Positions 6,749 to 52,539 are shown, counted from the stretch's first letter. The stretch: DNA of 58,045 nucleotides from a virus (IMGVR_UViG_3300048839_001287:1-58045); one strand, 5' to 3'. Notes: a model not told the origin generated them from the letters alone. Translations and numbers: made by a program.

Positions 6749-7182
6749 TTAGAATCATTCCCGATAAACTCCAATTAGGAGTTGATTACACTAAAACCAT
6801 GTCCTTCGATGACGCACAAAGATTAGCTGATAGACTCGGCCTTGATCTTGTGTGTGTCAACGAAGCCGCTTTAATATATACAATTACAAACGAAGAAAAG
6901 TTCCTTTATGCTGAAAAGAAAAGAAAGAAAAATAAGCCAAAGGAGCAAAAAACAATAAAAATTAAAGCGGGTATTTCTTCTGCTGATTTAGCTAGAAAAT
7001 TAGAAAATATACTAGAATTCAAAAAAGAAGGACATCCAGTAAAGATTGAGTGGTTCATTCCACAAAGAATGAAAAATGATGTTAATATTACAGCCTTCAA
7101 ATCTTTTTTAACTGTTTTATCTAGCCATTTTCTTGTCAAAATTCCAGAAACGATCGAGATAAAAACCATTTTATATATATGA
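6745..7182 (+). CDS. Translation initiation factor IF3-like protein
   Basis: I chose the ATG at 6745 (ATGA overlap); a longer start at 6715 is in frame. The 145-residue product follows the IF3 plan. The N-domain (1-55) has a strand-helix pattern with MSFDDAQRLADRLGLDLVCV, matching the AREAGLDLVEV region of IF3, then EKFLYAEKKRKK, matching YGKFRYEQKKK. After the Lys-rich linker, the C-domain (68-145) starts TIKIKAGISSADLARKL and continues through HPVKIEWFIPQRM, aligning with IKLRP, the helix and VKVTLRFRGREM of IF3. IF3 binds the 30S subunit, blocks 50S joining and checks the start codon. The C-domain is more diverged than the N-domain. Confidence 0.75.
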   Translation: MIRIIPDKLQLGVDYTKTMSFDDAQRLADRLGLDLVCVNEAALIYTITNEEKFLYAEKKRKKNKPKEQKTIKIKAGISSADLARKLENILEFKKEGHPVKIEWFIPQRMKNDVNITAFKSFLTVLSSHFLVKIPETIEIKTILYI

Positions 7183-7595
7183 ACGTAGTTCTTGACAAAA
7201 AGGTTCCTAGACTTATCGCAGTCTATGGAACATTGAGAAAGGGGTGGGGAAACCATCGATTGATAGCCGACGCGGAATTTGTAGGAAAGGGGAAAACCAA
7301 GGAAGACCTGGTGCTTACCCAATCTGGAATTCCCTATGTCTCAAGACAAAAGGTTGGAAATCCGGATTACCCAGCCAGCAAAGTAACAGTGGAAATCTAC
7401 CGCGTCACCGACCCATGGATGATGAATTCACTGGATAGTCTTGAAGGGCATCCAGAGTGGTATTTTCGCAGCCCCGTTGAAGTTGAGTTGGAAGATGGCA
7501 ATGAACTCGTAGCAGAGATTTATCTGAACGAGCGCTCTGTCGGTAGACCAAACGCATCCGGCGACTTCGGAAAACCCATCTTCAGTGAAGAGTAG
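7179..7595 (+). CDS. Gamma-glutamylcyclotransferase-like (AIG2/GGCT)
   Basis: 138 residues with the family signature near the N-terminus: VYGTLRKGWGNHRLI, then YPASKVTVEIYRV, then LDSLEGHPEWYFR with the usual catalytic Glu region. These enzymes release gamma-glutamyl groups as pyroglutamate. The gene is coupled by ATGA to the IF3-like gene but is far richer in G+C (31 of 60 bases in the line starting at 7261) than its AT-rich neighbours. It resembles the amidoligase genes at 12.5-21.5 kb in this. GGCT-like enzymes accompany amidoligases in other phages, so it probably belongs to that pathway. Confidence 0.8.
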   Translation: MNVVLDKKVPRLIAVYGTLRKGWGNHRLIADAEFVGKGKTKEDLVLTQSGIPYVSRQKVGNPDYPASKVTVEIYRVTDPWMMNSLDSLEGHPEWYFRSPVEVELEDGNELVAEIYLNERSVGRPNASGDFGKPIFSEE

Positions 7596-12495: not shown

Positions 12496-13416
12496 ATGCA
12501 AAAATCGAAAATATTTCAAGAGAAACAAAGAGGTTGGGGTGTTATCCAAAGAGGAGATTTTAATCCAAAAGCAAGCATTATTGTTCGTTCCACTTCTTTT
12601 GGGTGGGGATGTGCCCAAGAAGTTAGAGACGCGTCAATCGACTTCAGTCAAGAAGCCGAAACCGAACTCAAAAGAATGTGGATTTATTCCTATATCCCTA
12701 TTACTGGTAAAGAGATTCCGGAATTGGTTACTCAATGGATTGGCCTGTTAAACGACGAAATGAAAAAAGTGCAAGTAGAAAATGCCCCATCTTTTTTTGA
12801 GATTCTCGGCGTTTTTACTGCTGATCAGTTGTATAGCCATGAAGGTTACGGCTACCAAAAAGAGCTCGATAATTGGGTAGTCGTAAAGCAACTGATTCCA
12901 AAACGTTCCGAGCTGAAGCCTGAAATAAAATGGGCTAAATTCATGAACCTGGCCCTTTACACACTGGTGCGCTATCTGTACAGATCAGAATACATCCGAA
13001 CTCCACCTACGACAATCAAAATCTGGGAAAAAAATCCGGACTTGACATTTTTAGAGACAATGTGGTTGGCACAACAAACAACCATTGGAATGAAAATCAA
13101 CAGCACATTTTCAATCCATACGTATGATTCTTTGCCAAAAGAATCTATAGAAAAAGTTTTACAAGATTTGACAACAGGTTCAATCTTGCTGGCTTTTGGG
13201 AATAAGTTTTACGATACAAGGTTAATTTCTCAGCCCTTAGTCAACCGGATGGCATCAAATAGTGGAAGATATCCGAATAATGACCTCATGGCTTACGCAA
13301 TGTGTCTGTTGGACAAAGAATTTGCGGAGAGAAAAAATGATTACGAAATCATGAAAGAAGCAATTACAGAAAGAAAATTTCCTGTACTGCTTGAACTGTT
13401 AAAAAAATACAAATGA
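12496..13416 (+). CDS. Unknown protein at head of amidoligase cluster (306 aa)
   Basis: The ATG lies immediately after the terminator. The product is aromatic-rich and helical (FMNLALYTLVRYLYRSEYI, WEKNPDLTFLETMWLAQQ), with a basic start (SKIFQEKQRGWGVIQRG). No ATP-grasp, Ntn or glutamine-synthetase signature is visible. Its G+C content is nearer to the amidoligase genes than to the replication genes (27 of 60 bases in the line starting at 12961), and it is coupled by ATGA to the class I glutaminase. I infer that it works with that pathway, but the activity is unknown. Confidence 0.6.
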   Translation: MQKSKIFQEKQRGWGVIQRGDFNPKASIIVRSTSFGWGCAQEVRDASIDFSQEAETELKRMWIYSYIPITGKEIPELVTQWIGLLNDEMKKVQVENAPSFFEILGVFTADQLYSHEGYGYQKELDNWVVVKQLIPKRSELKPEIKWAKFMNLALYTLVRYLYRSEYIRTPPTTIKIWEKNPDLTFLETMWLAQQTTIGMKINSTFSIHTYDSLPKESIEKVLQDLTTGSILLAFGNKFYDTRLISQPLVNRMASNSGRYPNNDLMAYAMCLLDKEFAERKNDYEIMKEAITERKFPVLLELLKKYK

Positions 13417-14108
13417 GAAGAAAAAAGCTGGTCGGCATCCCACCGACATTAAACAACAATTTGGGAGTATCTCGGGAGTATCATGAATTTTTCAGTTATT
13501 TTGGCAATGTTATTATATTGCCCACGAGCAAAGAACTCATAGATATTGATCTTCTCGTACTCCCGGGAGGTGCCGATGTTTGCCCCAGCCGTTACTCAGT
13601 TGATCGGTTTTTCTCTTATGGAGGAAATCCAAACAGATTTTATGAGTGGTTTGATACGCAGGTACTCCCTGGTTACATTCAAAGAGCAATAAACAGGGAA
13701 ATGGGAATTTTTGGTATTTGCCGAGGACTGCAAACCCTCAATGTCGCTCTTGGAGGAACTCTTTACCAACATCTGTTGGACGAAGTGTATAATCCAGAGT
13801 TAGACAGAAGCAAATTGACACAAACCGGAATTGTGCTGGATACAGCAAAGGACGTATGGAACGGGCCGAGAGAAATCAAATTTAATTCAATGCACCATCA
13901 GGCTATCCGCCAATTGGGTGATGGATTAGTTCCGACTATTCTCTCAAAAAACCCGGTTACTGCAACAGAGCACTATGAACCCTTCAAAGTCATTGAAGGA
14001 ATCAGACACAAGACAGGGAAAATCTGGGGGGTACAATACCATCCAGAAGAAATCTACGACGCATTTTCCAACAAAATAATTAATCATATTCTTTATGAAA
14101 AACTTTAA
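13413..14108 (+). CDS. Class I glutamine amidotransferase (peptidase C26-like)
   Basis: 231 residues with the alpha/beta-hydrolase-like class I fold: LVLPGGADVCPSRY, the nucleophile elbow GICRGLQ (C103), NSMHHQAIRQLG and GVQYHPEE with the catalytic His and Glu. This matches the gamma-glutamyl-GABA hydrolase branch, which cuts gamma-glutamyl amides. In this cluster it could release ammonia for a ligase or trim gamma-glutamyl products. Coupled by ATGA to the unknown gene and overlapping the COOH-NH2 ligase by 14 bases. Confidence 0.88.
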   Translation: MRRKKLVGIPPTLNNNLGVSREYHEFFSYFGNVIILPTSKELIDIDLLVLPGGADVCPSRYSVDRFFSYGGNPNRFYEWFDTQVLPGYIQRAINREMGIFGICRGLQTLNVALGGTLYQHLLDEVYNPELDRSKLTQTGIVLDTAKDVWNGPREIKFNSMHHQAIRQLGDGLVPTILSKNPVTATEHYEPFKVIEGIRHKTGKIWGVQYHPEEIYDAFSNKIINHILYEKL

Positions 14109-14967
14109 TGAAGTCACAGTTGGCTCCGATGTCGAAGTGTTTCTCACAACAAACGGCTTACCAATTTCAGCGGTTGGCCTTATTGATGGAGGAAAAGAGA
14201 ATCCGGTAGAATTTTTACCGGGGTTCGGTCTCCAACGCGACAATGTGATGGCCGAATACAACATTCCGGCTTTCCCGATTGAAGAGAGGCACCTTTGGCC
14301 CGAGTACCACAAAACTGCTCTGGAACACATCAAAACAATAGTCCCGCCATTCCTGCAAGTAACTGTTCGCCCTAGCCTGGAATTCCCGGAAGAAGCTCTT
14401 CAGGACCCAGAGTCGTGCGAATTCGGCTGCTCGCCCTTCGTGGACATCTGGAAACAAAACCCAGGAATGGTGACACAAGAAACAATTGTTGCCGGAGACG
14501 TTGGTAACCTTCGCTTTTGCGGGGGGCATATCCATTTCGGATGGCAAGGAGCTTCCATCGGCTGGGATAAACCCAGCGAAAAAGTTACCGACGAAGAAGA
14601 AATTTTAAAAAAACTTTTCTGGGCCAGCTTATGCGACATTTTCCTCTGGATTCCTTCACACTTCGAGGACACCGATGATATCCGCCGTCAATACTACGGC
14701 AAACCCGGGAAAGTCCGGTACAAAGAGTACGGTGTTGAGTATCGTTCTTTGAGCAACTACTTCGTTGCTTCAGAAGAACTGCTCAACAAAGTCATGCAAC
14801 GCATTCAGGCAATGCATGATTATGCAAATACCGTACACCCGAGCGATTGGGCCGCCCACTTCGAAGAAAACCGGAAAATGATTGAAATGTTTGTAGCAGC
14901 AAAAGACAAAAAAGCTGCTGCCGAACAGTGCAATCTGGCTTGCCGGTTTAATCTGCAAATCGCCTAA
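14095..14967 (+). CDS. PhiEco32-type COOH-NH2 ligase (glutamine-synthetase-like)
   Basis: 290 residues that follow the phiEco32-like COOH-NH2 ligase type 2 family. Features are an acidic start VGSDVEVFL, then NVMAEYNIPAFP, LRFCGGHIHFGW (metal/ATP site His) and YGVEYRSLSNY near the C-terminus. These enzymes use the glutamine-synthetase fold to join a carboxyl group to an amine with ATP. It is preceded by a glutaminase and separated by three genes from the ATP-grasp ligase. The line starting at 14221 is 53% G+C by hand count (32 of 60), against 25% in primase (15 of 60, line 15541). Confidence 0.82.
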   Translation: MKNFNEVTVGSDVEVFLTTNGLPISAVGLIDGGKENPVEFLPGFGLQRDNVMAEYNIPAFPIEERHLWPEYHKTALEHIKTIVPPFLQVTVRPSLEFPEEALQDPESCEFGCSPFVDIWKQNPGMVTQETIVAGDVGNLRFCGGHIHFGWQGASIGWDKPSEKVTDEEEILKKLFWASLCDIFLWIPSHFEDTDDIRRQYYGKPGKVRYKEYGVEYRSLSNYFVASEELLNKVMQRIQAMHDYANTVHPSDWAAHFEENRKMIEMFVAAKDKKAAAEQCNLACRFNLQIA

Positions 14968-14971
14968 AAAA

Positions 14972-16012
14972 ATGGACTACAGCATCAGAGAAGATTTAAA
15001 CTTCTCAAGTATTCGACAAACAATTTCTGATGAAGAAATCTATGCTGGATATATAGGTGCTCCCATCCAACTAGACACAAAGTACTGTTCTGTCTTTCGT
15101 TCAAATGATATGATTCCTTCATTATCCTTTTATGTGACTCCGAATCACTGGGTAATGCATAAAGATTTTGGACGAAACGACAGAGCAGGAAATGTATTTG
15201 ATTTTGTACGAAAGCTGTATCAATTAGAAAATAATTGGCAAGCAGCAGTACAAATAAATAAGGATTTTGGTTTAGGTTTATTGAATAATACAAAAACCTC
15301 TCCAAAACCTTCTGTTCCTATAAAGAGGATGGAGAGCAAAAAATTACAAAATATTGAAAAGATATTAAGGTATAAACCAAGACCTTTTTTTGAAAGAGAT
15401 TTATTTTATTGGAGTAAATTCAACGTAGACTTGAATATACTTAAACATTTCAATGTGCATACAGCGGACATTGTTTTTATTAACAATGTTCCTATATGGG
15501 TCTACGAAATAACAAACCCTATATATGTGTACACTTTTACTGATAAATTTAAATTTTATCGACCACTTACTAAAAATAAGGACGGTAAATTTTTATCCAG
15601 TAAAAATATTGGAGAAGTATATGCTGGTTATGAACAACTTCCCAGAAATGGAGAAGAACTTATCATCACCAAAGCTATGAAAGATGTTATGGTTCTTTAT
15701 AGTTTAGGAATTAATGCTATTGCTCCTAACGGAGAAACATACGCATTTGATCCATTAATAATAAAGAATTTAGAACAGCGGTTCAAAAAAATTTTTATAA
15801 TGTTGGATAATGATTGGCATAAGCCAGTAGAAGATAATACTGGAATTAATGCCATGAAAAAGTTTACTGAAAAATATCCAACAATATTACCATTAATTAT
15901 TCCAGACCAATTAAAATGTACAGATATAGCAGAGGTCATGGATGAATATGGTGTTTCATTTACAAAACAAGTACTAAATCATGTTAGAAAAAATTCAAGG
16001 AAATTTTCATAA
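14972..16012 (+). CDS. DnaG-type primase (TOPRIM)
   Basis: 346 residues. The N-terminal part has GAPIQLDTKYCSVFRSND and HKDFGRND, the catalytic-core side of the primase. The TOPRIM domain shows GEELIITKAMKDVMVL with conserved Glu at 228-229 and IMLDND (D279, D281). The zinc finger of full DnaG is missing, as in other crAss-like primases. The AT-rich sequence matches the polymerase/helicase genes, not the G+C-rich amidoligase genes on either side. It makes RNA primers for PolA. Confidence 0.85.
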   Translation: MDYSIREDLNFSSIRQTISDEEIYAGYIGAPIQLDTKYCSVFRSNDMIPSLSFYVTPNHWVMHKDFGRNDRAGNVFDFVRKLYQLENNWQAAVQINKDFGLGLLNNTKTSPKPSVPIKRMESKKLQNIEKILRYKPRPFFERDLFYWSKFNVDLNILKHFNVHTADIVFINNVPIWVYEITNPIYVYTFTDKFKFYRPLTKNKDGKFLSSKNIGEVYAGYEQLPRNGEELIITKAMKDVMVLYSLGINAIAPNGETYAFDPLIIKNLEQRFKKIFIMLDNDWHKPVEDNTGINAMKKFTEKYPTILPLIIPDQLKCTDIAEVMDEYGVSFTKQVLNHVRKNSRKFS

Positions 16013-16637
16013 AATTATCGAAGCTTTTCAACAAACAGAGGACTGGAAAAAGTTAAAAGATTTTATTGGCAAAAACAATATTTTGCCGACAAAAGATAAA
16101 ATTTTTTATGCTTTTGAATTGTGTCCTATGGAAAAAATAAATGTGGTAGTTATAGGGCAAGATCCTTATCATACTCCAGGAGCAGCCCACGGATTGGCTT
16201 TTTCTGTCCCACAAGAATATTCTCAAGTGCCGCCGTCCCTTTTAAACATCAAAAAAGAAATTGCCGATGATATCTATGGAACAAAAGATGTAGATATCAT
16301 AAATAATGATTTATCATATCTTGCTGCCCAAGGGGTTTTACTTTTAAATACATCCTTAACTACTATTCCTGGTGTTGCTGGTGCGCACAAGAAGGAGTGG
16401 GAAAATTTTACAGCACATGTAATGAAACATTTGGGGCAACTTGAAAATGTTGTCTTTATGTTGTGGGGAAAACACGCACAAGAGTTAGAAGGTTTTATTA
16501 ACCATAAAACCAACCTGGTTCTTCGTGCTGCTCATCCATCTCCTTTTTCTGCAAACAAAGGGTTTTTGGGTTGTAAACATTTCTCTAAGGCAAACGAGTA
16601 CTTAAAAACAAAAAATAAACCAGAAATCGTATGGTAA
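15981..16637 (+). CDS. ung: Uracil-DNA glycosylase (family 1)
   Basis: 218 residues with every family 1 landmark: GQDPYH with catalytic Asp61, LAFSVP, LLLNTSLTT, LWGKHAQE and the loop HPSPFS with His185. It removes uracil from DNA. UDG is one of the conserved crAss-like replication genes. It overlaps the primase end by 32 bases and shares low G+C with it. Confidence 0.97.
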   Translation: MLEKIQGNFHKIIEAFQQTEDWKKLKDFIGKNNILPTKDKIFYAFELCPMEKINVVVIGQDPYHTPGAAHGLAFSVPQEYSQVPPSLLNIKKEIADDIYGTKDVDIINNDLSYLAAQGVLLLNTSLTTIPGVAGAHKKEWENFTAHVMKHLGQLENVVFMLWGKHAQELEGFINHKTNLVLRAAHPSPFSANKGFLGCKHFSKANEYLKTKNKPEIVW

Positions 16638-17644
16638 CGATACCAAATACATTGAAAAATAAGGCTAATGAAAAAATAAGGAAATTTCTCCGGAAATATT
16701 CTTTATTATTAAAAAAACTACATCCAAACTTGGCTGCTTCTTACAGAAAAGAAAATATTCAAATAGAAGGTAACTGGGCAAAACAGTTTCGCCTTGTACT
16801 AGAGCAATATGTTCGAAATGAGGAGGCCGAAAATTGGCAGGATTTTATCCAATTGGTGATTGATCTGAAGTTTCATGATTTGTACAAACAGATTGAAAAA
16901 GCAGAGTTGATTTGCTATAAAGAAGAAATTAAACCACCAAAAAAACAAAAAACTAATTTTAATCAGCAGGAAAATATTTTATCTTTATTGTTGACCAAAT
17001 TCTTACATTGTTCATCTATTGAAGAAAAAGACGAAGTAAGAAAAGAAATGCACAGAGCTTTGTTTTCAATTTTCCAAGACTTGAAAACAATGAGAGAAAT
17101 TGTGCCAAGTTTAGAACAATATTCAAATTTGGTAGAGCTAAAGATGTCAATTAATAGAATCTCAAAAATGGCCAGCAGAAATTCAGATGAACTTATTTAT
17201 CTCATACAAAATGAAATCAAAAGAATATCGAGCGTTACAAATCCGATCAAGACACCCATCCCATCGAATCCTTCGCAGAACATCCATTTTAAAACAGGTA
17301 AGCCGGGGTCTGTCGGTGATTATTCGAATGGGTTCGACAACGACATTGTCAGTAGACGAAAAGACGTTACAACTGAACCCATTCGAAGGGGTCCAGGCTT
17401 GCGCGAACAAACTAGAGATGAAGCGGTTATTTACGAAGTTCCAAGTTCAGACTCCACCTTGGGTTTTTATTCCGAGGAACCTGGCATCAGAACAAGCACT
17501 GCAAGTCCTGAAAGAAATCAATGGACGAGAGTTGAACGAGAGTTCTATGCTAGTCTTCAAGACCGTCAATCACTCACGTGGCCGGGGAATGATGCTGTTG
17601 GATTGGAACCAAGTCAGGGAATTCCTGACGAAACCAAGGACTAA
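16631..17644 (+). CDS. Unknown protein, helical N-part with suspicious C-tail
   Basis: The first ~205 residues are charged and helical (KNKANEKIRKFLRKYS, VEEKDEVRKEMHRALF style), ending near SDELIYLIQNEIKRIS. From about 17240 on, the frame runs through the ATP-grasp gene in another frame and becomes Ser/Thr/Pro/Arg-rich without hydrophobic pattern. That tail is probably non-native sequence translated past a recombination point. There is no stop between 17240 and 17644 in this frame. The real protein may end early in a relative lacking the downstream cassette. Confidence 0.5.
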   Translation: MVTIPNTLKNKANEKIRKFLRKYSLLLKKLHPNLAASYRKENIQIEGNWAKQFRLVLEQYVRNEEAENWQDFIQLVIDLKFHDLYKQIEKAELICYKEEIKPPKKQKTNFNQQENILSLLLTKFLHCSSIEEKDEVRKEMHRALFSIFQDLKTMREIVPSLEQYSNLVELKMSINRISKMASRNSDELIYLIQNEIKRISSVTNPIKTPIPSNPSQNIHFKTGKPGSVGDYSNGFDNDIVSRRKDVTTEPIRRGPGLREQTRDEAVIYEVPSSDSTLGFYSEEPGIRTSTASPERNQWTRVEREFYASLQDRQSLTWPGNDAVGLEPSQGIPDETKD

Positions 17645-18050
17645 AGATTACATTGTCGAAAAATTTGTTTCACACACAAAAGAATACCGTATCCATGTGT
17701 CTTCTTTGGGCAGATGTTTTTACACCTGTCGAAAAATGTTGAAACAGGACGCTACTGAAAGATGGTTCAGAAATTCCAAAAACTCCGTGTGGATTTTGGA
17801 AGACAACCCTCTTTTCGATAAGCCTATTACATGGAACGCAATTGTTCAAGACTGTCTTAAAGCCCTCAATGCTTTAGGTCTCGATACTTGTGCTTTCGAC
17901 GTAAAAGTAAACAAGAAAGGAGAGTGGAGTATTCTGGAAGGTAACTCAGCACCTTCTTTTGGAGACTGTACAATAGACAATCCCACGATTGTTGCACAAA
18001 GATACATAGAAGAATTTAAAGATTTAATAATCGAAAAAAGCAAAAAGTAA
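17187..18050 (+). CDS. ATP-grasp ligase of the amidoligase cluster
   Basis: 287 residues; ATG at 17187, with 17211 equally possible. The N-part has VIIRMGSTTTL and CANKLEMKRLF (substrate/ATP region of ATP-grasp), followed by FKTVNHSRGRGM (glycine-rich loop), then YIVEKFV and YRIHVSS. The C-terminal ATP/Mg site has CAFDVKVNKKGEW and LEGNSAPS (the usual E-x-N motif). It should make a carboxyl-phosphate and join it to an amine. It overlaps the upstream gene by 458 bases in another frame, at the G+C shift. It is joined by TAATG to the class II glutamine amidotransferase. Confidence 0.8.
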   Translation: MNLFISYKMKSKEYRALQIRSRHPSHRILRRTSILKQVSRGLSVIIRMGSTTTLSVDEKTLQLNPFEGVQACANKLEMKRLFTKFQVQTPPWVFIPRNLASEQALQVLKEINGRELNESSMLVFKTVNHSRGRGMMLLDWNQVREFLTKPRTKDYIVEKFVSHTKEYRIHVSSLGRCFYTCRKMLKQDATERWFRNSKNSVWILEDNPLFDKPITWNAIVQDCLKALNALGLDTCAFDVKVNKKGEWSILEGNSAPSFGDCTIDNPTIVAQRYIEEFKDLIIEKSKK

Positions 18051-19786
18051 TGTGCGGAATTTTCGGATATTCGGGGCCGTCCCCCGATTTAGATAAGGTT
18101 AGGGTGCTTGGCATCCAAAACGACACAAGAGGGGGAAACGGATGTGGAATTTACATAGATGGGACACTTCACAAATCCGTTACACCCCCGAAATTCGGAG
18201 ATTGGGTGAAGACCGTCCGTCTTCCCCAACCAACCAAAGTAGGCACAACGTTCGGACATTGCCGGAAGGCAACAGTTGGAGCCGTCTCATTGGACAATAC
18301 GCATCCATTTGAAATCCGCGGCACCAATAACCGGGTAAAACTGGTTGGTATGCACAACGGTACGATTTCAAACTGGTCGGAACTGTGCGAAAAGCACAAC
18401 ATTGACAGCCACCAAGACATTCAAGTAGACTCTGTTGGTCTACTGTCTTTGTTGGCTCAACTTCCCAAAGGAGACTTCTCAATTTTAGAAGAGTATGTTG
18501 GTGCTGCTGCTCTGGCATGGGTTTATTCTTCTAAACCGAACGAGCTGTATCTATTTCACGGGAAGTCCCCGAGATACAAAAACTCTACGATAGAATCGGA
18601 AGAACGCCCGCTCTATTTTTGGGATATCTCAAAAGAGAAGAAAGGCGAAGAAATCGTAGACACAGGAAAAGTGGGAATCTACTTCTCAAGTATCAAAGAT
18701 TCTCTTATGCTTATTGGAGCCTTAGAGAATGAAGTAGAAGATCTCCCGCATAACAAAGTTTTCGTCATTGAAAATGGAAAGATGCGTGAAATTCGGGAAA
18801 TCAACAGAGCAAAAGCTGCCCAAGAAGAATGGTCAACTACTGGCACTAGTTACGACTACAGCGACAAGAGGACTTATGGCATGGGGGGGACAAATTATAA
18901 CGACGTTACCAATTTTACTCACAAAACCTATTACCCACCATCCGGAAAAAAGATTCCCGATCCTACCAAGTTTGTTAAGATAATACAAAACAGCGACAAA
19001 TTTCTTCTGCTCAAAAATGAGCCGGAAATACCTATCAGCAACACGTACGGAAAGGTATACTTTCATAAGGGCTTGTACTGGAGAGCGGGGTTTCCTGTTC
19101 ATAGTCGTTTTGCTGTTTTTGATTCTTCTATCAATAGCGCCCCATTTATGATGGATATACCGTTTTATGTTGACATAGACGGTACAGTACTTACCATGAA
19201 AGAAGGGGCCGCTAGACAGCTTACTCCATACTATTTCTACAGAGGCTACCTGATGGAAAACAGAGAAAAGTATGAGGGGCTTTGTCGGGAGATCGAAAAC
19301 TTTACTACAGTTAGCGCAACAATGTATAAAACGTGCTACCTAAAACGAGTACATCCAAGACAGTTTGTTGCATGGTCAGAAAGTAGTTACGGTAATAGTA
19401 CAAACGACGGCAAAATTTTGTTGCCGGATATAACTAAGGTTGAACACGGTAATTGGTGGAACTGCGTAGCAAATGGGGCTGTTTATCCGTTATTCTCCAA
19501 CAAAGTTTATCATTTTGAAGACGGACAGTTGAATATGATCGAAGAGCGAGAAAGCTACAACGGTCTTATCATTAGTCCAGAAGATTATGAACAAACCGAA
19601 GCAACTGATGTGGAAGAATTCGAACAAGCTGCCGCGGATCTTTGTAAAGAATTTACAGAACAGTTGGAGGATTTTATATCTGATAACTACGCGATTTTCG
19701 AGTCCAAAGAAGAAAACGATACAGTAATGAGAATGATTGTGTTGAAAAAAATTGTCGAAGGAGTAATTAAATACCAAGAACAATAA
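18050..19786 (+). CDS. Class II glutamine amidotransferase (Ntn hydrolase)
   Basis: The N-terminus MCGIFGYSG places the catalytic Cys at position 2 after Met removal, as in the purF/glmS/asnB glutaminase domain. RGGNGCG, HCRKAT (usual HxR), HPFEIRG and MHNGTISNW (GNxxN-type loop) follow. Residues 1 to about 250 are the glutaminase. The remaining ~320 residues, with KVYFHKGLYWRAGFP and acidic C-terminal stretches, match nothing I know. It should supply ammonia to an amidoligase. TAATG overlaps on both sides point to stoichiometric synthesis with the ATP-grasp and Amidoligase_2 proteins. Confidence 0.88.
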   Translation: MCGIFGYSGPSPDLDKVRVLGIQNDTRGGNGCGIYIDGTLHKSVTPPKFGDWVKTVRLPQPTKVGTTFGHCRKATVGAVSLDNTHPFEIRGTNNRVKLVGMHNGTISNWSELCEKHNIDSHQDIQVDSVGLLSLLAQLPKGDFSILEEYVGAAALAWVYSSKPNELYLFHGKSPRYKNSTIESEERPLYFWDISKEKKGEEIVDTGKVGIYFSSIKDSLMLIGALENEVEDLPHNKVFVIENGKMREIREINRAKAAQEEWSTTGTSYDYSDKRTYGMGGTNYNDVTNFTHKTYYPPSGKKIPDPTKFVKIIQNSDKFLLLKNEPEIPISNTYGKVYFHKGLYWRAGFPVHSRFAVFDSSINSAPFMMDIPFYVDIDGTVLTMKEGAARQLTPYYFYRGYLMENREKYEGLCREIENFTTVSATMYKTCYLKRVHPRQFVAWSESSYGNSTNDGKILLPDITKVEHGNWWNCVANGAVYPLFSNKVYHFEDGQLNMIEERESYNGLIISPEDYEQTEATDVEEFEQAAADLCKEFTEQLEDFISDNYAIFESKEENDTVMRMIVLKKIVEGVIKYQEQ

Positions 19787-21468
19787 TGGAAGTAATAACC
19801 TTTTTTGGCGGCACTGCGAATAGAACACAGTGCCGCTACATTAAGGGGAGTTTCTACGAAATTGGAAAAGAAGCCTACATGGTAGATGGCCAATGGCACA
19901 GAGTTAATAACAGCAAAATTGGGTACGACATGATTTCCAAAGAATGGAGATTAATGGAAAGTATGCCCATAAACTACAAAAAAGTTTTGTTGAACATTGA
20001 CCCTGTAACAAATATGCCTTACTATGGCTACAGACCGATTGAAAAAGAAGAGGCTTTTCTGTTCGTTACAGTTTCGCGCACCATTCCGGGGTCGAAAAAT
20101 AACGAAACGGTATCAAAGCACATCGAAGCCTTAATCAATCGTGGCGCCGATTCAGCAGAAGCTGCCCAACAATACCTAGTGTATACGTCGAAAAACAGAA
20201 AAGAAACCTTGCCAAGAGATGAGTGGTTTAAGGCTAACTTTTTACCAAAACTGCAAAAAACTCTTGAAGAGTTGGAAGAGTCTGAATACATGAATTACAG
20301 TCAAATTCTTTGCGAAGAACAGTTGGCCGTTAAACTTGGTCATGTGGAAGACCCGAAAACCGGGATTTTCTATCAAAAAGATCGTTTGACAAATACAGAA
20401 AAGCAAAGAATAAGTAAAATCATGACTTATTCCTTGCAGTACTATGGTCGTGCCTACACAACGGTAGGACACAAAGACGAAGAGCAAACAAGGGAATACA
20501 GCGAAATTTACAGCAGAAAGATTTCAGGAAAACCCGCCGACAAAGTATTACAGAAGTTTATTCCTTACACGTTTGGAATTGAACACGAGACCATTCGTGG
20601 CTTTATACCGGAACCCAGACTTCCCTGGTTAGGTCTTATTCCTTTAAGGGATGGGTCGCTTGAAACTGGAGATGGGCCCGCCGGAATTGAGTATACATCT
20701 GTACCAATGGAGGGGGAATATGGAATTCGTTTATTGCGAAAACAAGCAGAATACCTCAAGAAAAGCTGCGTAGTAAATAACAAATGTGCTTGGCATATCC
20801 ATTTTTCCGGGTTCCCCAGAACTTGGTCTTATGTTAGCAAACTGTATTCTACATGCAAGTTACTCGAAGATGAAATGTATTCCTTGTTCCCAAGATACAA
20901 AAGGCATTCCAGGGAAATCATTGGCTCTCAAAAAGAGTATACGGCTCCTTTGCCCGCTGGATTAGACAGGCCCAGAAACATGTTCAATTATCTTTCTGGA
21001 GGAATGGACGAAACCAGAGCAGAATTCGAGGGGCAAAAATTTGAGGGGGAAATAAAGCACATTAACATAAGACACCATCCCAATGGTGATCAAAAATGGA
21101 ATCGTGCAGCCAGATATCATTGGATAAACTTTGAGCCCATCATTTTTTCTCCGGCGCAAACAATTGAGTTCAGACTTCACACTCCTACGGTTAACTTCCA
21201 AAAGATGGTAGCATGGTTACTGATTTGTTCTGCAATTCTACGTTACGCAGAAATCATGCTTGTAGCTCCATTGACAAAAAAACTGTCGTTGGAAACTGTA
21301 ATCAAAGAAGTAATCGATACCAAATGGCTCCAAGAGTGGGTACTTCGTTACATTGAAACAAGGAAAAGTTGGTTCGTGAATGGAACCGATGAAACAGGAG
21401 AGAAAGAAATTGCCTATGATAAAGTCTTTTCTATCTCGACTGTTGGAGAAAAAATATCTGTTGAATGA
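19786..21468 (+). CDS. Amidoligase_2 family ligase
   Basis: 560 residues. The ligase core is in the second half: FGIEHET (263-269), RDGSLE (288-293), IEYTSVP (301-307), HIHFSG (337-342), then WINFEP and TIEFRLHTPT (459-467). These Glu, His and Arg residues form the glutamine-synthetase-like ATP/metal site of the Amidoligase_2 family. The N-terminal 250 residues are a separate charged domain with EELEESEYMN and no known match. Amidoligases form amide bonds on peptides or small molecules. Last enzyme of the cluster; coupled by ATGA to a nuclease gene. Confidence 0.88.
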   Translation: MEVITFFGGTANRTQCRYIKGSFYEIGKEAYMVDGQWHRVNNSKIGYDMISKEWRLMESMPINYKKVLLNIDPVTNMPYYGYRPIEKEEAFLFVTVSRTIPGSKNNETVSKHIEALINRGADSAEAAQQYLVYTSKNRKETLPRDEWFKANFLPKLQKTLEELEESEYMNYSQILCEEQLAVKLGHVEDPKTGIFYQKDRLTNTEKQRISKIMTYSLQYYGRAYTTVGHKDEEQTREYSEIYSRKISGKPADKVLQKFIPYTFGIEHETIRGFIPEPRLPWLGLIPLRDGSLETGDGPAGIEYTSVPMEGEYGIRLLRKQAEYLKKSCVVNNKCAWHIHFSGFPRTWSYVSKLYSTCKLLEDEMYSLFPRYKRHSREIIGSQKEYTAPLPAGLDRPRNMFNYLSGGMDETRAEFEGQKFEGEIKHINIRHHPNGDQKWNRAARYHWINFEPIIFSPAQTIEFRLHTPTVNFQKMVAWLLICSAILRYAEIMLVAPLTKKLSLETVIKEVIDTKWLQEWVLRYIETRKSWFVNGTDETGEKEIAYDKVFSISTVGEKISVE

Positions 21469-26900: not shown

Positions 26901-27964
26901 ACTTGCCCCATAATGCTGCCTATATCAGTAATAGCTTTGTAAATATCAGGAGTATTTAAAAGAGTGCCTGTATGTTTTTGTACAAAACCAGTAATAACAT
27001 CTTCCTGGTATTCTCTAAGTAAAGCAGAATAATGATCCATTCTTTGCTTATAATAAGCAAAGCCGTTTACCCAGTTTCCAGAAACACTTTGATAGCCATA
27101 TTTTAATCTATCAGACTGCAACTCAATATCATCAAATAAGATATGAGATTCTCCATCAGATAAATTAAAGTCACCTGCTTTTTGCCAGAATCGCATAATT
27201 CTTTGTAGATACGCAATTGTACCAACATCCATAGTTGGTTGCTTAAAGGCCCCTTCTACTTCTTTTAAATGCTCTTCAGCAAAATTTAACAGCGTTTCAA
27301 GATCTTTTGTTTTAGACAGTGCTTTAAGATTTTGATCTATATTTTCAATCTGATTGTATAGTTTTGCAATCTTAGCATCAATATTCTTTACGCCTACTTT
27401 ATTGTTTGCAGCTTTTGCGTCTTTTTTCTTTTGGAATTCTTGGCTTAATCTTTTATACAGTTCGCTTTTTTGTTTCTTAAAAGTTTCTCTTAAAGCGCCA
27501 AAACGATTCATTTTAGAAGAAGAAACGATAAGATCATCATACTCATATTCTCCGTCTCGATCAAAAGCTCCTTGAATTTTTACTACATTATCTTTAAGAA
27601 CAGGAACTTTATATTTGATCCCAGTAGGAGTTTGTATTTTTATTGGATTACCCAAAACAGGCAAATCAAATATCCTGTTTATCTTTTTAATTGACAATAC
27701 TCCTTGGGTATAAGAATTACTTCCAGATGCTTTTTGATTTACATAATAGTATCCTTTAGCATTATTCTTTCTGATACCTTGTTTTGCACTAACAGCTTCA
27801 TCAAGATAATGTTGCACAGTTCTATTGACGTCGATTCTTCCTTCTTCATTAAAAACAGGAGGAAGGGTAGTTCCGACTACCCCATCAAATTCTCCTCTTT
27901 CAAGTAACTGCTGCATTTCTTCAGCAGTATATTCTTTACCATTGTATGTATATGTACAAGCCAT
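23957..27964 (-). CDS. Giant virion protein downstream of the RNA polymerase (1335 aa)
   Basis: Last gene of the leftward unit, overlapping the polymerase stop by one base (TAATG). The start resembles other giant crAss-type proteins (MACTYTYNGKEYTAEEM). The middle is long alternating helix and coiled coil (residues about 160-260 and 830-900). The C-terminal ~150 residues have hydrophobic segments (LLLITATIALAALKHA) followed by DDDD. In crAss-like phages the giant proteins next to the DFDGD-type polymerase gene are packaged and injected with it. This one is probably a second polymerase-associated or ejection protein, but I can point to no catalytic motif. Confidence 0.7.
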   Translation of the reverse strand: MACTYTYNGKEYTAEEMQQLLERGEFDGVVGTTLPPVFNEEGRIDVNRTVQHYLDEAVSAKQGIRKNNAKGYYYVNQKASGSNSYTQGVLSIKKINRIFDLPVLGNPIKIQTPTGIKYKVPVLKDNVVKIQGAFDRDGEYEYDDLIVSSSKMNRFGALRETFKKQKSELYKRLSQEFQKKKDAKAANNKVGVKNIDAKIAKLYNQIENIDQNLKALSKTKDLETLLNFAEEHLKEVEGAFKQPTMDVGTIAYLQRIMRFWQKAGDFNLSDGESHILFDDIELQSDRLKYGYQSVSGNWVNGFAYYKQRMDHYSALLREYQEDVITGFVQKHTGTLLNTPDIYKAITDIGSIMGQVISLAETKDPMLQSLAIAIKNQSTKARMDSASINEKVDELVEKIRPKLMAINSKDIYSIFKQKDSNGKETGDMVMRYSVDYFDEKDKLLRVAESTNKPKHWDAYFRWRRNNEIMFDVRKLFPKTKKSGVYRYNNEIFTAVDVDTHKKDLLEALGQKGYDKLIARLEKKVEEFEFDYELAKDRIYSDPITTIAEKDELMDQWDKINSPYWAAAKVVDNKIILDHKGNKLRIQGQHRTYAVPKKYGATGAKTKWYDPNFEIIEKDNDLFEFYDFMAETLYQLNALLPHDVRRNIRLNTIPTIKKTLVEKLGSDNSGKLAAIGLWDSMKEILRSEDLSDTSTADIDPVTGEDEKNIRFHMMSNHKAEVEQKMKTAVIEFQLTNKRVPNVLEKKALEKDILHEMAQNKSFDLGKILKLYAFTTYSFHHKAAIEDYVKLLEQQFQTRKEVHTNSSGAPLHNTAGELAVKDGLDNYKNMLDFALRRFYGLREQDVELKSEKKLLTSEELAQKKKIETLLTQNEEDYKNGLMIKSVYDSNKKILEGQLEYLGGVLTGSGVVNGAIRWMQLKSMGWNILSGIANMGFGLVSNIIEAGDGRLFGEQEYKKAMAMVMRSVLRNFSFNSYNHPTALKIRNLMDRMDVLKDASDEMYKATSKSLLGINRLRFLSPYQMQKRSEYINQAPVMIAMMLKETITDNNGKQRPMWEAFGNDGKWNTAEFGKEPRDFILDFKVRIDQAIKKTHGNYDPESPLMVKKTSIGRLLAQFRTWMFEGFFNRFGKEYEDYSLGYKRKGRYRSGFSVFAYANGTGLDWSKQSMLMGRELVRRMLLGHVIKKADQQGVFMGEQYKFDDVDYANLSANVNETLLLITATIALAALKHATEGEDDDDRSFLTNIMINELLRVQTDILFYSNPSAMETLIKRPIPAMSLFSDATQLMDATWKLMLGEDEIKSGVYSGDSRILRETAQFLPGTTQAHKIYSSGVQLFDK

Positions 27965-30900
27965 TAGTTACATTTTTTACTTATAATACCCTCTTTCATT
28001 AAAAGTTCCAGCTCTTTCATCATTGTCATTTGCATGTCAAGTCGTTCTGCGGCCTCTTGTTTTTTAACCATGGCTGTGTCGTATTCTGCTAATAAATCAG
28101 GTCTGTTTTTTGCTAACCACGGACGGGGGTTAGAAGTTACTGGAAAACCCATAACTTGTGGTAATTCATTATGAGGAATAAACACTTCTTCATTTTTAAA
28201 TATTAATCTCAAATGACCCCTTTTGGTTCCAGAAGCAACCATATCATCAGAAACATCAACAACCTGCTCTTTATTTTTATTGCTTAACATAACCAATTGC
28301 GACTTAGTTGTTTGATAAAACTTGCCAGTATTAACCCACTCTTTGCTGAAAACAACATTACCAGGAATAGGACCGGCTTGTATAAACATATCCATCATTT
28401 CCAAACCTGTGTAACCGTTTAAAGATTTAGTTTCAACATTTCGATAAGCAACTTTAAAACTTTTATCTGGATTGTTCTTAGCTGCGGCATATAGCTTTTT
28501 AATGTTGTTAACAATTTGTTGAGGAGGGATTGACTTAAGTCCCTTATTATCCTTTACTCGTAAATCTTTTGTGGGTAACGCATAAGCATTGCCTTGTAAC
28601 CCCTCTCCTTGCCCATACTTAGCACCAAACTTTTCAACAGCAATTTTAGCTGCGCCAGCCCCGTGCCTTCCTTCTGGATTACTACCAAAAACAAAAACTG
28701 TCTTAGCATCAGGAATTATATCTCCTTCATAGTATAAAACATTTGGATCAATATTGGCAGTAACTTGAGGTTGAGAATTAAACAACTCTCCAAAGGTATT
28801 ATAATCATTAACATCCTTTGCTACAGCGTCAACAGCTTCGTTTCCTTGAACACCAGAGTGGCCTCTTACCCAATAATAAGAAACTTTACCCGGCCTCTTC
28901 ATAATCTCATCAACCAACTTGTCAGCAATAATCCTAATGTTATTATCTCCAGCAAAGTTACCTTTCGAGAAAGCTTCATTACCATAGATTTTTTTATCTA
29001 GAAGAGCCTTATCAAGTTTAACATACTGGGAAACTTTTTGATGAATTTCTTCTTGCTGTTTTGGTGTAAGAGTTTTCCAAAAATCTTTATAACCTTTTTC
29101 CGAAAGATGTGTGTTGTCAGTAACTCTCATTATAATTCTGGAAAGAATCCAAAGTTGAACACCTTCTAAGTCTTGGTAGATTTGTACAAACTCGAAAGAA
29201 GGAGTATTCTGAATAGCTACAAGAGAACCATAAAGTTCCATAACACCATTAGAAGGATCGCCTTTTATTTCTTCGCCAAGTTCTTTAGACATCTTTTCTA
29301 AACCGCCCTCAAACTTGTTGTAGTGGCCTGAGATCGAATGTTCTTTATCCCCGTGCTTCAGATATACACCGAAGCCTAATTTGCCCGCCTGCTTAATATC
29401 AGAGCCATCTACGAAGACCTGAAGAGGTTTATCTGGGGAACTAAATCGTGCTTGTGTTTGAATTGGTTGTTTTTGTTCTGGCTGCTTAATGTTTGCTTCG
29501 ATACGACTCTCAATAAGAGTTGTAATATCCTTAACAACATTTGCAGAAACTTCATCAGAGAAAGTGATGCCAATAGCCTTCAACAAGTCACTAATCAATT
29601 CTACAAACTTCTCAAACAATCCTTTGTCATTTAACTTTTCTTGGAAAGCAGGAGAAGTCATTCCTAAAGCAAAAAATTCTCTTAAGTTATGGGCACCATA
29701 AAGTGCACTAGCCTCTTCTCTGGTTAAGTTATCCCCATTCGTTTTTATATAAGCCTTGACATCGGTATCTTGTGATAACCCATATTCATCAAGAACAGCT
29801 TTCCTATATGTTTCTTGAAGTTTACTTAATCGAGCTATAATCGTTTTTTGTTGTGCCGTTAACTGATTTGGATTAATCCTATACTTATGTATGAGGTCGG
29901 TAGTCAAGCCATGGGTTAATTCATGCAGAACAACTTCTTCCAGCATACTTCTATTTTCTGCTTTGGAAGCATTGATTATAATGTTAACCTTATTATTAGT
30001 GCCATAAGTAGTTCTGGCAAGATATGGTGCTGTCGGATCATCAATAACTGAAATAGACCACTCAATACCTGTCTTATCAATAATATCTAAAATATTTTCA
30101 GCATACTCACGATAACCAAGGTTAGTTGTAAGAGACTTAATATTTTCAAGAACATCTTTGATTACAGGTAAAGACCCGTCCCCCAATTCCAGTTCTTCTA
30201 TCAACTGATTATAGTTTGGTTCCGCACTGGGAGTTATAGCTTTAATAACTTTTGCGGGTGCGGGAGCTTTTTGACTATTTCTTACTTTCTTGGCATCTTT
30301 AAGTCTAGTGTCATTATTAACAACAGAAGAAGACTCTGTGTTCCAAGAGTATTCTCTTATAGAGGCCACGTGTTTTTTACCTATAAATCTTGTGCCAAGA
30401 ACGGGGATTCTTTCATATTCATTACCACCAACATAAGCAAACAGATGCCATCCTTGGGGGACATCTGGATCTTTAAAAGAAATAAATTCAGTTAGCCATT
30501 CTCCGCCTTCTCTTTCAACAGTATATTCTTCCAGTTGATCTGGATTTATAGCAATAAAGTCTACCTCTTTTAGTTTAGTAATAGGTTGTTGTTTTCCTTC
30601 TGGAGTAACTAAATTAAAATGTTCAACTTCTCCCCTAGTAATACTACCAGGATTATGCTGTACGAATTGTTTTGTATATTTGCTATACTGATATGGATTT
30701 TCTTTTTTCATTACAACTTCCACATCCTTGCTATTAGCAAATGTAATTTTATTCATCGCTTCAGCAAATCCTATCTTTTGCAGATATTCTACAGGAATAT
30801 ACTTTACATATTGAGAAGCTTCTTGTAAGCCACCAGTCATATAAGCATAAAGAATTAACTCCCTACCCAAGTCCTGGGTAGTCATTGTCTTTCCATTAAA

Positions 30901-33900
30901 TTCGCCAATTGGAATTGGATGTACAAGCAACTCCATGAAGGAAGCATACAGATTTAGTTCATCATAGTTTTCAGCAGTTGCAGCATTGAACGTAACAGTA
31001 CTAGGTAAATCTCCTTTTCCAAGTCTTGGTCTTAATCTATTTAAGAAAGCATTATTCTTGAAGAATTCCTGATCTTTAGATGCCAACAATATAGCCGCCA
31101 AAGAATAATGTTCAAACGTATCCTCTCCGGTTTTTACATCAAATAAAAGCCTGCGCCTTTCTACACTAGCTGATTCAGTACCAAGATTAAGGGCAGCCGC
31201 ATTTGAAAACAGATAGGCTTTCAAGTCTTTCCAAACTTTTTCATAGTAATCTGCCTTTGCTTGTGGCGGAAGATTCATTTTACCAGTAACCTGAAGAATC
31301 TCTTCCATCTGCACTTGAATAGCATCTTGGTGGAATGGGAACAATTGTCTCCACAATCTATTATTAAGCAACAAAGCATTCTTAGTTGCATGACCATTGA
31401 TAGTATTAAATTGAACATTTACATGAGCACCAAATCGAGTATAACGCCCAAGTACAGTATGCCCGTTAACTATAGGAGAAACATCTAAAGAATAAATAGA
31501 CTCTTCTTTAGTCATACTAGAAAATATTGATTTGCCAACACCAGCAGAGTCGGTATTGATAGCAGACTGAATCTTTTTCAACTCTATACCATATGGTTGA
31601 AGGAAAAGAAACTTAGCAAGAAGAGCCGCCTGTTTCTTTTTATAATCAGGATAAGCTTCCCCCTGTTCGATCATTGCCATCATTTCTGCTGACCCAATAT
31701 TATCAGACTGCTCTACTAGTTTATCAATAATCTGTTGCTTTTCTTCTGGACTGGCTTTTAAGAACGCTTGTCCATAGTATTGTCCAAATAATTCATTTCT
31801 CACTCTTATTGCAGCCCCAACTTCATATTCTTTCAAAGAGTTGGTCGCCTTACTTAGTTTGTCTACATACTCAAAAATAATATCTTGGGAAATAAATGGG
31901 GCAACAACAGATTCATCAAAACCAAGTTGATTAAGGATACGAATAACATCATACGTGTAGTTATTCACATTGATCTTATCCATGATCTGTTCCTTCTCAT
32001 TATCCACAGCAGCCGACTGATAAGCAGCAATTACATCAGACTTATAACGTTTAGTAGTACCAAGAACATATTTACCAGATAAATCACCGCTCGATCTAAT
32101 ATTACCAAACACAATTGGCATTGGTGGCAAACTTTCCTCATCAAAAATAAACTGCTCAGTTAAATAAATTTGTTCACCAGAAACAGCATAAGCATGTTGC
32201 ATTACGGAGTTAAGAACGGAGTCAAGTGAAAATACACCGACACCGCCAACTCTACCAGCCATAGCATTGATAAACTTTTGCTTTTGATATGAATCAGAAA
32301 GAGGAGAAAATATTTTATCACTGTGTTTTCTAGCTGCTCTAGCAGAACTAATTTTTGCAGCAAGATCTTTTCCGCCTTTTAAATCACCATAAGCAAGAGG
32401 GGCATGAATTTGTTGCTGAACCACATCCCTTGGATCTGACATTACTTCAAAGTGAATATCAATAATGTCATTCTGAATACTCTTCTTATAATTACTGATT
32501 TGCTTAACAATATCTTTTCGAAGTAATTCGGCTTCAACTTTATCTAAACCAGCTTCAACAGCAGCATTAATATAATCCATCAAGAAATCTCTTGATTCAT
32601 TAATACCCATATTGTATTTAAGAAAATCACTGAACCTATTAATTTTAAATGTCCCCTCTTCCCCATTAAACATGTGAGTATAGAAGTAATCATTTAAATC
32701 AACAACAGAGTTTGCCTTTTCAACTAAACCTTTTATTGGATCAGCAAAAGAAGCCTTCTTAATATAAGGAGATTTTTCTGCCTTTATAGTTTTAATTTCT
32801 TCTATTAATTGTTTTCTTCCTTTTATTGTTTCGGACATTTCTCCAATCTCATCATACAGTTTATTTATTGCATCATAGATTTTCTGAATTTCTCCGGATT
32901 TATTCTTATTGAACTGAATTAATACTTGCTTTAAAGCTTTTGCATATTGAATTTCTTGTTCATCCTTAATCCACGCACCAAGATGTTCGGCACCAGCCTT
33001 TTCATTTAAAGAAGAGGCGTTAATTCTTTTAAGTTTGGCAATATCATTATCCATTAAGTTTCTAGCATAAGCCTTCAACTTAATAAAGTCTACTTTATCT
33101 GGATTATAAAAAGAACCGGTACCAACCACATTACTAAAGAATGCTCGGAAAGATGTGAACATTCTATCGCCAGCCTTGAACCCAAGTTCAGGAACATATA
33201 AGTCTGAATTAATAGATGTTATAGAAAGAATTTTTTCCTTCTTTAATTTACCAAGAGTTGCTTTAAAATAATCTAGCTTATCATAAGCCTGTTTGAGTTT
33301 GCCGTTTTCTTTTGAGAATATTTCCTGATTATCATCAATCAAAGTTCTCAACTGAATATTTAGCAAATCCAACTTATTCTGAGATTGTTCACTTAATGCC
33401 GAGTAATTTGTATGATGCATATACAAGTAAACCTTATCTACGTCAAAGTCAGAACCCATCTGTACAACAAGTTCTTTTGGCGCCACAATCATGTCACCAT
33501 GTGCTTTAGGCAAAAATCCAACTATTTCAAAATAAGCCATAGAGTTATGGCCTTGAGTTGGAATACGGAAACCAAATGTTTTTAAAAGCTCCTTATCAAA
33601 TTTAGTTGTGTCAAGAAACTTCTTACCATTTTTTTCTACGATAAAACTATCAATCTTTAATGCTTTACCATTATTGTCCAGAAATTTAAAGGGCATAAGA
33701 ATTTGCCCAGGTTTAAATTCTCCGTTTTCTACACGCATTGGCTGTAATCCTAACATTGGATCAAAACCTTCTACAAAAGTAATGTCTGGAGAATCTTTCA
33801 TGGATTCCCACTCCTTGAATTTAAAACCTTCTTCAGTTGCAAGTACGAGAGATTTCCCCGGGAAAGTCATCTTTCTCACTCTATTATCTACAATACTATT

Positions 33901-51350: not shown

Positions 51351-51838
51351 TTTATTCTAAATTCTCTAATCAAAAAATTGGTTAATCCGTATTTTCTTAT
51401 ATGACTAAGAATACTACCTTCCGCGTCTTTTCTTCTGGTTCTAACCAAAATTAACTTCCAGATTGTTTTATCTAATAAGTATGCATTCCATCTTTGCCAG
51501 TACAAAAGAAAAAAATACCCACCATGTTCTAAATTTTCATGGTATATGTTTTTACCAAATTCTTTTGTTTTATTAAAATCTACTAATTTTCTTCTATGCT
51601 TATAACGCATTATTCTTATACTTCCTAATCTATTAAATAACTTAACGGGCTCTCCTTTTTTTAAACGATCTATTACTACATCTGCATATATGTCCATTAT
51701 TTGTTGATAACGTTCTTTTGTAATATGCCCGGGTTTGTTAGGATTATCGTTTCCCTCTAAATAATAATAAGAATCGTAAACAGTAAGAGTTTTTTTCCTT
51801 TTTTGGTGACTAGGAAACATATGATCTAATAAACTCAT
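51347..51838 (-). CDS. crAss-type IHF-like protein (163 aa)
   Basis: The middle has the HU/IHF pattern: ITKERYQQIMDIYADVVIDRLKKGEPVKLFNRLGSIRIMRYK, where helix-turn then strand-GxxxI corresponds to the GE-V-L-x-x-F/LG-x-F/I arm of HU. Extra basic N- and C-terminal segments (SHQKRKKTLT; RTRRKDAEG) are typical of the crAss-type subunits, which lie among the tail genes. It may compact or bend phage DNA near the portal or in the head. ATGA overlaps at both ends. Confidence 0.65.
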   Translation of the reverse strand: MSLLDHMFPSHQKRKKTLTVYDSYYYLEGNDNPNKPGHITKERYQQIMDIYADVVIDRLKKGEPVKLFNRLGSIRIMRYKHRRKLVDFNKTKEFGKNIYHENLEHGGYFFLLYWQRWNAYLLDKTIWKLILVRTRRKDAEGSILSHIRKYGLTNFLIREFRIK

Positions 51839-52539
51839 ACTTCATTATTAGGCGCAGGAGAATTAGAATTATTAACAGCATCAACTATTTTTCCTTCTCT
51901 CCTAGCTAAACGATCTTCAATGTACTCGTATATATATGTATTCAAATCTGGCTCAATTGGAAACTCTGAATTAAAAACATCAAAACAAGGTTCTCCACTT
52001 GTATTTACACAATCAGTAATATCGGCAAGATCGGCAGGATCAACCCATAAAGCATTTACAATTACAAGAGGCAAATCAGTTGTTCCAAACACATAAAGAT
52101 AACCGTCAAATAATTGATATCCAATTCTATTAGGTACTCTGCTTGCCCCATTTTCTTGCTTGAGCCGCATGGGATTAATTTTCCCAAAATGCATAGAACC
52201 ATCAATAGTAGTTACATCCATGATAGCTTTATTACCACGCATGAACATATTAGGAATCTTAAACTTAGATTTTAAAACATAGCAATCAAGGCCTTTTGGA
52301 ATACAAGAACAGTCAAAATATTTTGTCTTTTCCAGTGGCACACAAATAGGAATCTTATTAAGCTCAGAAGTTGTTTCTCCTTTCTTAATTCTACGAGATA
52401 AAAATAAAGCTCTAGCATCTACTAATAGCTTATAAATAGAAAGATCAGATAAGTCCATATAGGAATCATCTGAATATTTGCGCATCATTTCTCTTACATG
52501 ATCTATATGCGCTTTTACACTTCTTAATTCATTAATCAT
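51835..52539 (-). CDS. crAss-like structural (ring/tail) protein (234 aa)
   Basis: N-terminal coiled helices (SVKAHIDHVREMMRKYS), central beta domain with CSCIPKGLDCYVLKSKF and DGYLYVFG, acidic C-terminus. It lies between nuclease and IHF-like genes, a place held by a conserved structural gene in crAss-like genomes. Which ring or hub subunit it is cannot be told from the sequence. Confidence 0.55.
   Translation of the reverse strand: MINELRSVKAHIDHVREMMRKYSDDSYMDLSDLSIYKLLVDARALFLSRRIKKGETTSELNKIPICVPLEKTKYFDCSCIPKGLDCYVLKSKFKIPNMFMRGNKAIMDVTTIDGSMHFGKINPMRLKQENGASRVPNRIGYQLFDGYLYVFGTTDLPLVIVNALWVDPADLADITDCVNTSGEPCFDVFNSEFPIEPDLNTYIYEYIEDRLARREGKIVDAVNNSNSPAPNNEV

Follow-up and report, generated by a model that had tools for sequence, protein, structure and literature searches.

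A set of amidoligase genes in phages of the phiEco32, LUZ24 and RIO-1 types has been published under the name of 'peptidoglycan modification' cassette or module, and modification of the cell envelope has been proposed as its role (PMC5498523, PMC11945000, PMC10580990), the idea being credited there to an Iyer et al. paper and to Hardies et al. 2013. In the crAss-like phages phi14:2 and cr108_1 the genes of the cassette have already been annotated one by one. A phage amidoligase gene set was reportedly predicted by Iyer et al. in 2009, in unrelated phages. We found no tested activity of any cassette enzyme in the literature. In the Puu, ergothioneine (EgtA/EgtC) and butirosin (BtrJ/BtrG) pathways, a glutamyl group is added by a ligase of the glutamine synthetase (GS), GCS or ATP-grasp type and removed again by a C26 enzyme, a class II glutamine amidotransferase (GAT-II) or a gamma-glutamyl cyclotransferase (GGCT). 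The phage set may follow the same logic of adding and then removing glutamyl groups, and we know of none of these pathways that unites three ligases with GAT-II, C26 and GGCT enzymes.

The locus studied here lies in a viral DNA of 58,045 nucleotides (IMGVR_UViG_3300048839_001287), called the window below. It is a crAss-like version of the described cassette, of which few annotated examples exist in a crAss-like setting, and it is real, intact and well conserved. It is not peculiar to this phage: phi14:2 and cr108_1 have an annotated set of the same kind, and the set has been published for podoviruses. The proposed relation to phiEco32-type phages stands: phiEco32 (gp77, gp80, gp83, gp84 and gp86), UFV-P2 (gp21, 23, 25, 28 and 29) and PSA-HP1, with its seven-gene cassette (PMC5498523), encode the same enzyme families on a single strand near the primase gene. 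Nevertheless, the proteins of the window are only about 20-35% identical to those of phiEco32/LUZ24/RIO-1-like cassettes, the set encloses genes for a primase and a uracil-DNA glycosylase, and the GGCT gene is found 5 kb upstream of it. In place of the C26 enzyme of the window, phiEco32 and UFV-P2 encode an unassigned protein, its gene lying between those of the COOH-NH2 ligase and Amidoligase_2. The nearest annotated relatives are phi14:2 and cr108_1, with 37 and 36% identity in the ATP-grasp ligase, respectively. They share with the window a long Amidoligase_2 with an N-terminal extension and a uracil-DNA glycosylase beside the set, whereas the phi14:2 cluster lacks the C26 gene that the window has and cr108_1 lacks a GGCT gene near the set.

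Phage identity and genome context

The assignment of the window to a crAss-like phage, already made in the preliminary description, is supported by a CrAss_Ring_2 tail ring protein (PF25702, 1.7e-20; 51838..52539, minus strand), by giant proteins matching phrog_15100 (1e-153) and phrog_16227 (8e-104), and by the relatedness to phi14:2 and cr108_1. These two Crassvirales, together with Leptolyngbya phage Lbo-JY46, are the closest annotated relatives for both the ATP-grasp ligase and Amidoligase_2. A nucleotide search of the region against phages gave zero matches. The record is probably a fragment of the genome, as neither a terminase gene nor one for the major capsid protein was identified in its 58 kb. 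One of the giant proteins, of 3200 amino acids (27964-37566, minus strand), carries an RNase H domain (residues 2714-2918) besides its virion structural match to phrog_16227. A 146-amino-acid protein (54346-54783, minus strand) is encoded by a stand-alone gene that matches the end of the baseplate hub/tail lysozyme family (phrog_1259).

Gene content of the locus

All genes of the cluster are on the plus strand. The five enzymes reported earlier were recovered as open reading frames at the same positions, with matches to Pfam or PHROG families and with catalytic motifs kept. Upstream of them, a gene at 12496..13416 encodes a 306-amino-acid partner, which held-out profile searches and alignment place as a divergent member of a family that we call P. 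It is followed by the C26 enzyme, which has a class I GATase fold and is likely a gamma-glutamyl hydrolase (13413..14108; Peptidase_C26, PF07722, 9.6e-26), and by a COOH-NH2 ligase of phiEco32 type 2, a glutamine-synthetase/GCS-like enzyme (14095..14967; PF14395, 3.1e-6, above the cut-off; phrog_3815, 9e-48). Next come a DNA primase (14972..16012; phrog_12622, 1.6e-37) and a uracil-DNA glycosylase (15981..16637; PF03167, 1.4e-14). Beyond a 337-codon reading frame (16631..17644), the set continues with a RimK-like ATP-grasp ligase (17187..18050; phrog_2599, 1.4e-26), a GAT-II enzyme of the Ntn type bearing Cys2 and an extended C-terminal part (18050..19786; GATase_6, PF13522, 9.4e-12) and Amidoligase_2 (19786..21468; PF12224, 1.1e-6, above the cut-off; phrog_2443, 5e-27). 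The GGCT-like enzyme noticed previously at 7179 is borne out by a GGACT/AIG2-like match (7179..7595; PF06094, 8e-17; phrog_2520) with intact YGTLRKG and LDSLEG motifs.

The enzymes are all present, but the primase and the uracil-DNA glycosylase, both unmentioned before, sit within the 12496-21468 interval and interrupt the cluster. The primase belongs to the replication module and falls outside the amide-bond pathway. In crAss-like phages the usual order is primase, GGCT, ATP-grasp, (P), C26, COOH-NH2 ligase, GAT-II, Amidoligase_2 and uracil-DNA glycosylase, compared to which the window is rearranged. The TAATG joins on either side of the GAT-II gene (18048-18052 and 19784-19788) are real, yet the single complex deduced from them is unsupported. 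Because most neighbouring genes of the window overlap or abut, such joins indicate an operon rather than a complex, and across the loci compared the ATP-grasp and GAT-II genes are adjacent in only 21 of 79 cases.

The 337-codon frame had no family match above the cut-off in Pfam, PHROG or NCBIfam, and tblastn against phages gave nothing useful. At its 3' end it runs about 430-460 nt into the ATP-grasp gene, in a different reading frame. The start of the ATP-grasp gene, whose encoded N-terminus was aligned with the phi14:2 counterpart, is probably at 17187 or 17211. The open run in the other frame of the overlap measures 143 codons, the longest inside the genes tested (the next reaches 86), which may reflect overlapping genes or else a frameshift.

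Active sites and family relationships

The set of families together with their active-site motifs makes up the complete amide-bond enzyme set that had been proposed. GICRG and YHPEE are kept in the C26 enzyme, as are the motif groups of the other enzymes (MCGIFG/HNGT; GSDVEVF/GGHIHFG/YRSLS; GIEHE/WHIHFSG/IEFRLH; RGRG/EYRIHV/EGNSAPS). Degeneration of active sites, raised earlier as a possible objection, was not seen: in columns at least 93% conserved among relatives, nearly all positions carry the consensus residue in the window, C72 of the ATP-grasp ligase being the one exception. The ATP-grasp ligase is sub-threshold in Pfam. In NCBIfam it comes closest to the RimK-type alpha-L-glutamate ligases, matching TIGR00768 at 2.8e-6, far under the curated cut-off. 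For the COOH-NH2 ligase, 306 phage records were retrieved by tblastn. Neither this ligase nor Amidoligase_2 has a sequence-detectable PDB relative, and their substrates are therefore not readable from relatives. The GAT-II domain matches PurF and GlmS profiles.

The preliminary description counted the C26 enzyme as one of two glutaminases, which is doubtful. Its best PDB relatives are Lin1909, 7d4r-type proteins and PuuD, i.e., gamma-glutamyl-amine hydrolases, with GuaA/CarA-type proteins much weaker. In NCBIfam, TrpG/PabA-type subunits lead, all far under their cut-off, and gamma-glutamyl-GABA hydrolase is one of the many class I GATases matched. Enzymes of the GGCT family strip gamma-glutamyl groups as well and act on gamma-glutamyl amines, which adds to the doubt. 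By its relatives, the C26 enzyme likely fits gamma-glutamyl amide hydrolysis better than ammonia supply.

Occurrence of the cassette in other phages

Gene sets were compared across Crassvirales and phiEco32 relatives, a check that had been suggested at the outset. Viral contigs were fetched with the ATP-grasp ligase alone or the COOH-NH2 ligase alone and combined with phage records; after removal of redundancy, 125 loci were obtained, of which the 82 of at least 17 kb served for the counts. Since each contig was picked by one gene, the co-occurrence of the other genes is a result and not an effect of selection. The four core enzymes (ATP-grasp, COOH-NH2 ligase, GAT-II and Amidoligase_2) occur together in 78 of the 82 loci, contigs that may share descent, far more often than expected by chance. 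They are always on a single strand and span 6.3 kb at the median. The cassette is present in phi14:2, cr108_1, Lbo-JY46, phiEco32, UFV-P2, CVT22, KZY1 and LAh_6, and is spread across many unrelated phages of Gram-negative hosts.

The GAT-II and Amidoligase_2 genes are neighbours almost without exception (79/81 loci), and the C26 and COOH-NH2 ligase genes are adjacent in 47 of 65. The C26 enzyme is found in 65/82 loci and GGCT in 57/82. A mutual replacement of the two was ruled out, both being absent from four loci with about five expected under independence. Among relatives, a primase frequently and a uracil-DNA glycosylase often neighbour the cassette. A second GAT-II-type reading frame directly follows Amidoligase_2 on its 3' side in some loci, among them L018, L021, L024, L034, L051 and L055. 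Genes for a nicotinate phosphoribosyltransferase and a PRPP synthetase, a duo resembling an NAD-restoring pair, adjoin the cassette in Lbo-JY46 (L004:8549-12758) and in Aeromonas phage LAh_6 (L174:3563-6701). An anti-phage defence reading of the window was dropped, PADLOC having given no match.

Proposed chemistry and target

We consider it probable that the locus is a phage amidoligase cassette with the class of chemistry outlined here, a judgement that concerns the enzymes and leaves the target aside. As far as families can tell, glutamate-type units would be both added and trimmed. The three ligases would make successive amide bonds from glutamate-type building blocks, and the GAT-II enzyme would either supply ammonia to Amidoligase_2 or unblock its product. 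The C26 and GGCT enzymes may then remove or edit gamma-glutamyl groups, as their counterparts do in the Puu, ergothioneine and butirosin pathways.

The target is a more tentative matter. Peptides of the host envelope, possibly changed early in infection, e.g., against superinfection, are the leading candidate, one to which we give somewhat less than an even chance. An envelope target is in line with the hosts, since the named ones among the matches listed are all Gram-negative or cyanobacterial. Against it, the genes sit in an early replication module with primase, helicase and polymerase, apart from the lysis genes, and no obvious envelope-targeting or Mur-ligase domain was seen on any cassette enzyme.

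The product could instead be a small molecule that stays free, for example a gamma-glutamyl amine or a short peptide of non-ribosomal origin; it would affect the metabolism or the defence of the host and leave macromolecules unmodified. PuuD, a relative of the C26 enzyme, does work on small gamma-glutamyl amines, as GGCT generally does, and the nicotinate phosphoribosyltransferase and PRPP synthetase genes of LAh_6 and Lbo-JY46 lie close to the cassette. Such NAD-type neighbours were, however, seen only in these two phages and not in the window, and the loci have no constant transporter, carrier or tailoring enzyme. We regard a free product as rather unlikely.

Tagging of a host or phage protein with glutamate-type residues, in the manner of RimK on ribosomal protein S6, appears less likely still. 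Although PHROG and NCBIfam both render the ATP-grasp ligase RimK-like, the NCBIfam match (2.8e-6) is weak and far under the curated cut-off, and one ligase suffices for RimK, a need that three ligases and several trimming enzymes exceed. The literature does propose that phage ATP-grasp ligases modify peptides or proteins, and a fast-evolving partner would be compatible with a substrate or an adaptor. Hypermodification of DNA bases, to which the replication-module position with its frequent primase and often nearby uracil-DNA glycosylase might point, is very improbable, as the cluster contains no base-modification enzyme that we could see and the DNA of the LUZ24-like phage U17, which has the set, is cut by 11 of 16 restriction enzymes (PMC11945000).

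Laboratory phages with the set exist among the phiEco32-like phages of E. coli and the LUZ24-like phages of Pseudomonas, so that deletion combined with mass spectrometry is practical.

The partner family

What is new here is that the partner gene appears to belong to a fast-changing family which accompanies the cassette and whose members are in some cases joined to the C26 enzyme, a modest addition to a cassette already described. The 306-amino-acid protein itself had no match in Pfam, PHROG or NCBIfam, and tblastn against phage records gave nothing useful. The P family comprises fast-evolving proteins of about 215-390 amino acids in crAss-like relatives. Of the 23 loci with a member, 20 have it next to the gene for the C26 enzyme or for the COOH-NH2 ligase, and the window is one of them. 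A P profile built without the protein of the window, and with fusion proteins trimmed to exclude their C26 half, found it with E=1e-4 and then 4e-6, later and more diluted rounds being weaker (0.0075 and 0.0013). Its score against the final profile is 16.2 bits, while the best of 2000 shuffles reaches 9.1. It has the conserved Cys and an RYLY motif, and all 23 aligned members, itself among them, share an invariant Cys and an invariant Arg. These profile results suggest a divergent member of the P family and not the orphan that had been described.

In two crAss-like contigs (L028:7356-8888 and L030:11608-13113) the C26 enzyme continues at its C-terminus into a P domain, a fusion that ties the two functionally; the partner may assist this enzyme or the COOH-NH2 ligase. 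The four nearly obligate core enzymes, the pairing of GAT-II with Amidoligase_2 and the P family fused to C26 form a defined protein set for co-expression. A single-sequence AlphaFold model of the 306-amino-acid protein was too poor for use (pLDDT 41), and the model of a P relative from another locus (L023) is confident (pLDDT 81, pTM 0.83). A Foldseek search of the latter against the PDB gave nothing with E <0.001, and its strong viral structure matches are only four crAss-like proteins.

Outside Crassvirales, the signs of P in the cassettes of phiEco32 and LUZ24 are suggestive only. After removal of CFGC zinc motifs and of the P clusters from crAss-like phages, an N-terminal C[FYW]G motif occurs in 10/77 cassette-adjacent clusters of unassigned proteins vs. 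1/166 other clusters of the same loci (p=5e-5). In a ranking of 243 clusters by their similarity to the P profile from crAss-like phages, cassette-adjacent clusters took 16 of the first 20 places (p=5e-6). In LAh_6, gp112 and gp113 have CF and IRN motifs, and a 266-amino-acid protein of this phage (the length of gp113) gives a weak Foldseek match to the P model (prob 0.60, E 0.22). Direct comparison of the P profile with partners from phiEco32, LUZ24 and LAh_6 reached E 0.017 for the best set and 0.012 for the best single protein, values not clearly better than the best of 60 control sets (0.027), so that we take the homology as suggestive only. Pairwise hhalign of single unassigned proteins across cassettes linked only close pairs. 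P may be an overlooked general subunit of the cassette, including phiEco32 gp87/gp88 and the LUZ24-like and LAh_6 partners, and work directly with the C26 enzyme, a proposal that we put at roughly one chance in three. Cassette partner genes often come as tandem pairs (L003:11674-13590, L017:8074-9400, L174:13720-15485), which are apparently paralogues in cr108_1 and L017.
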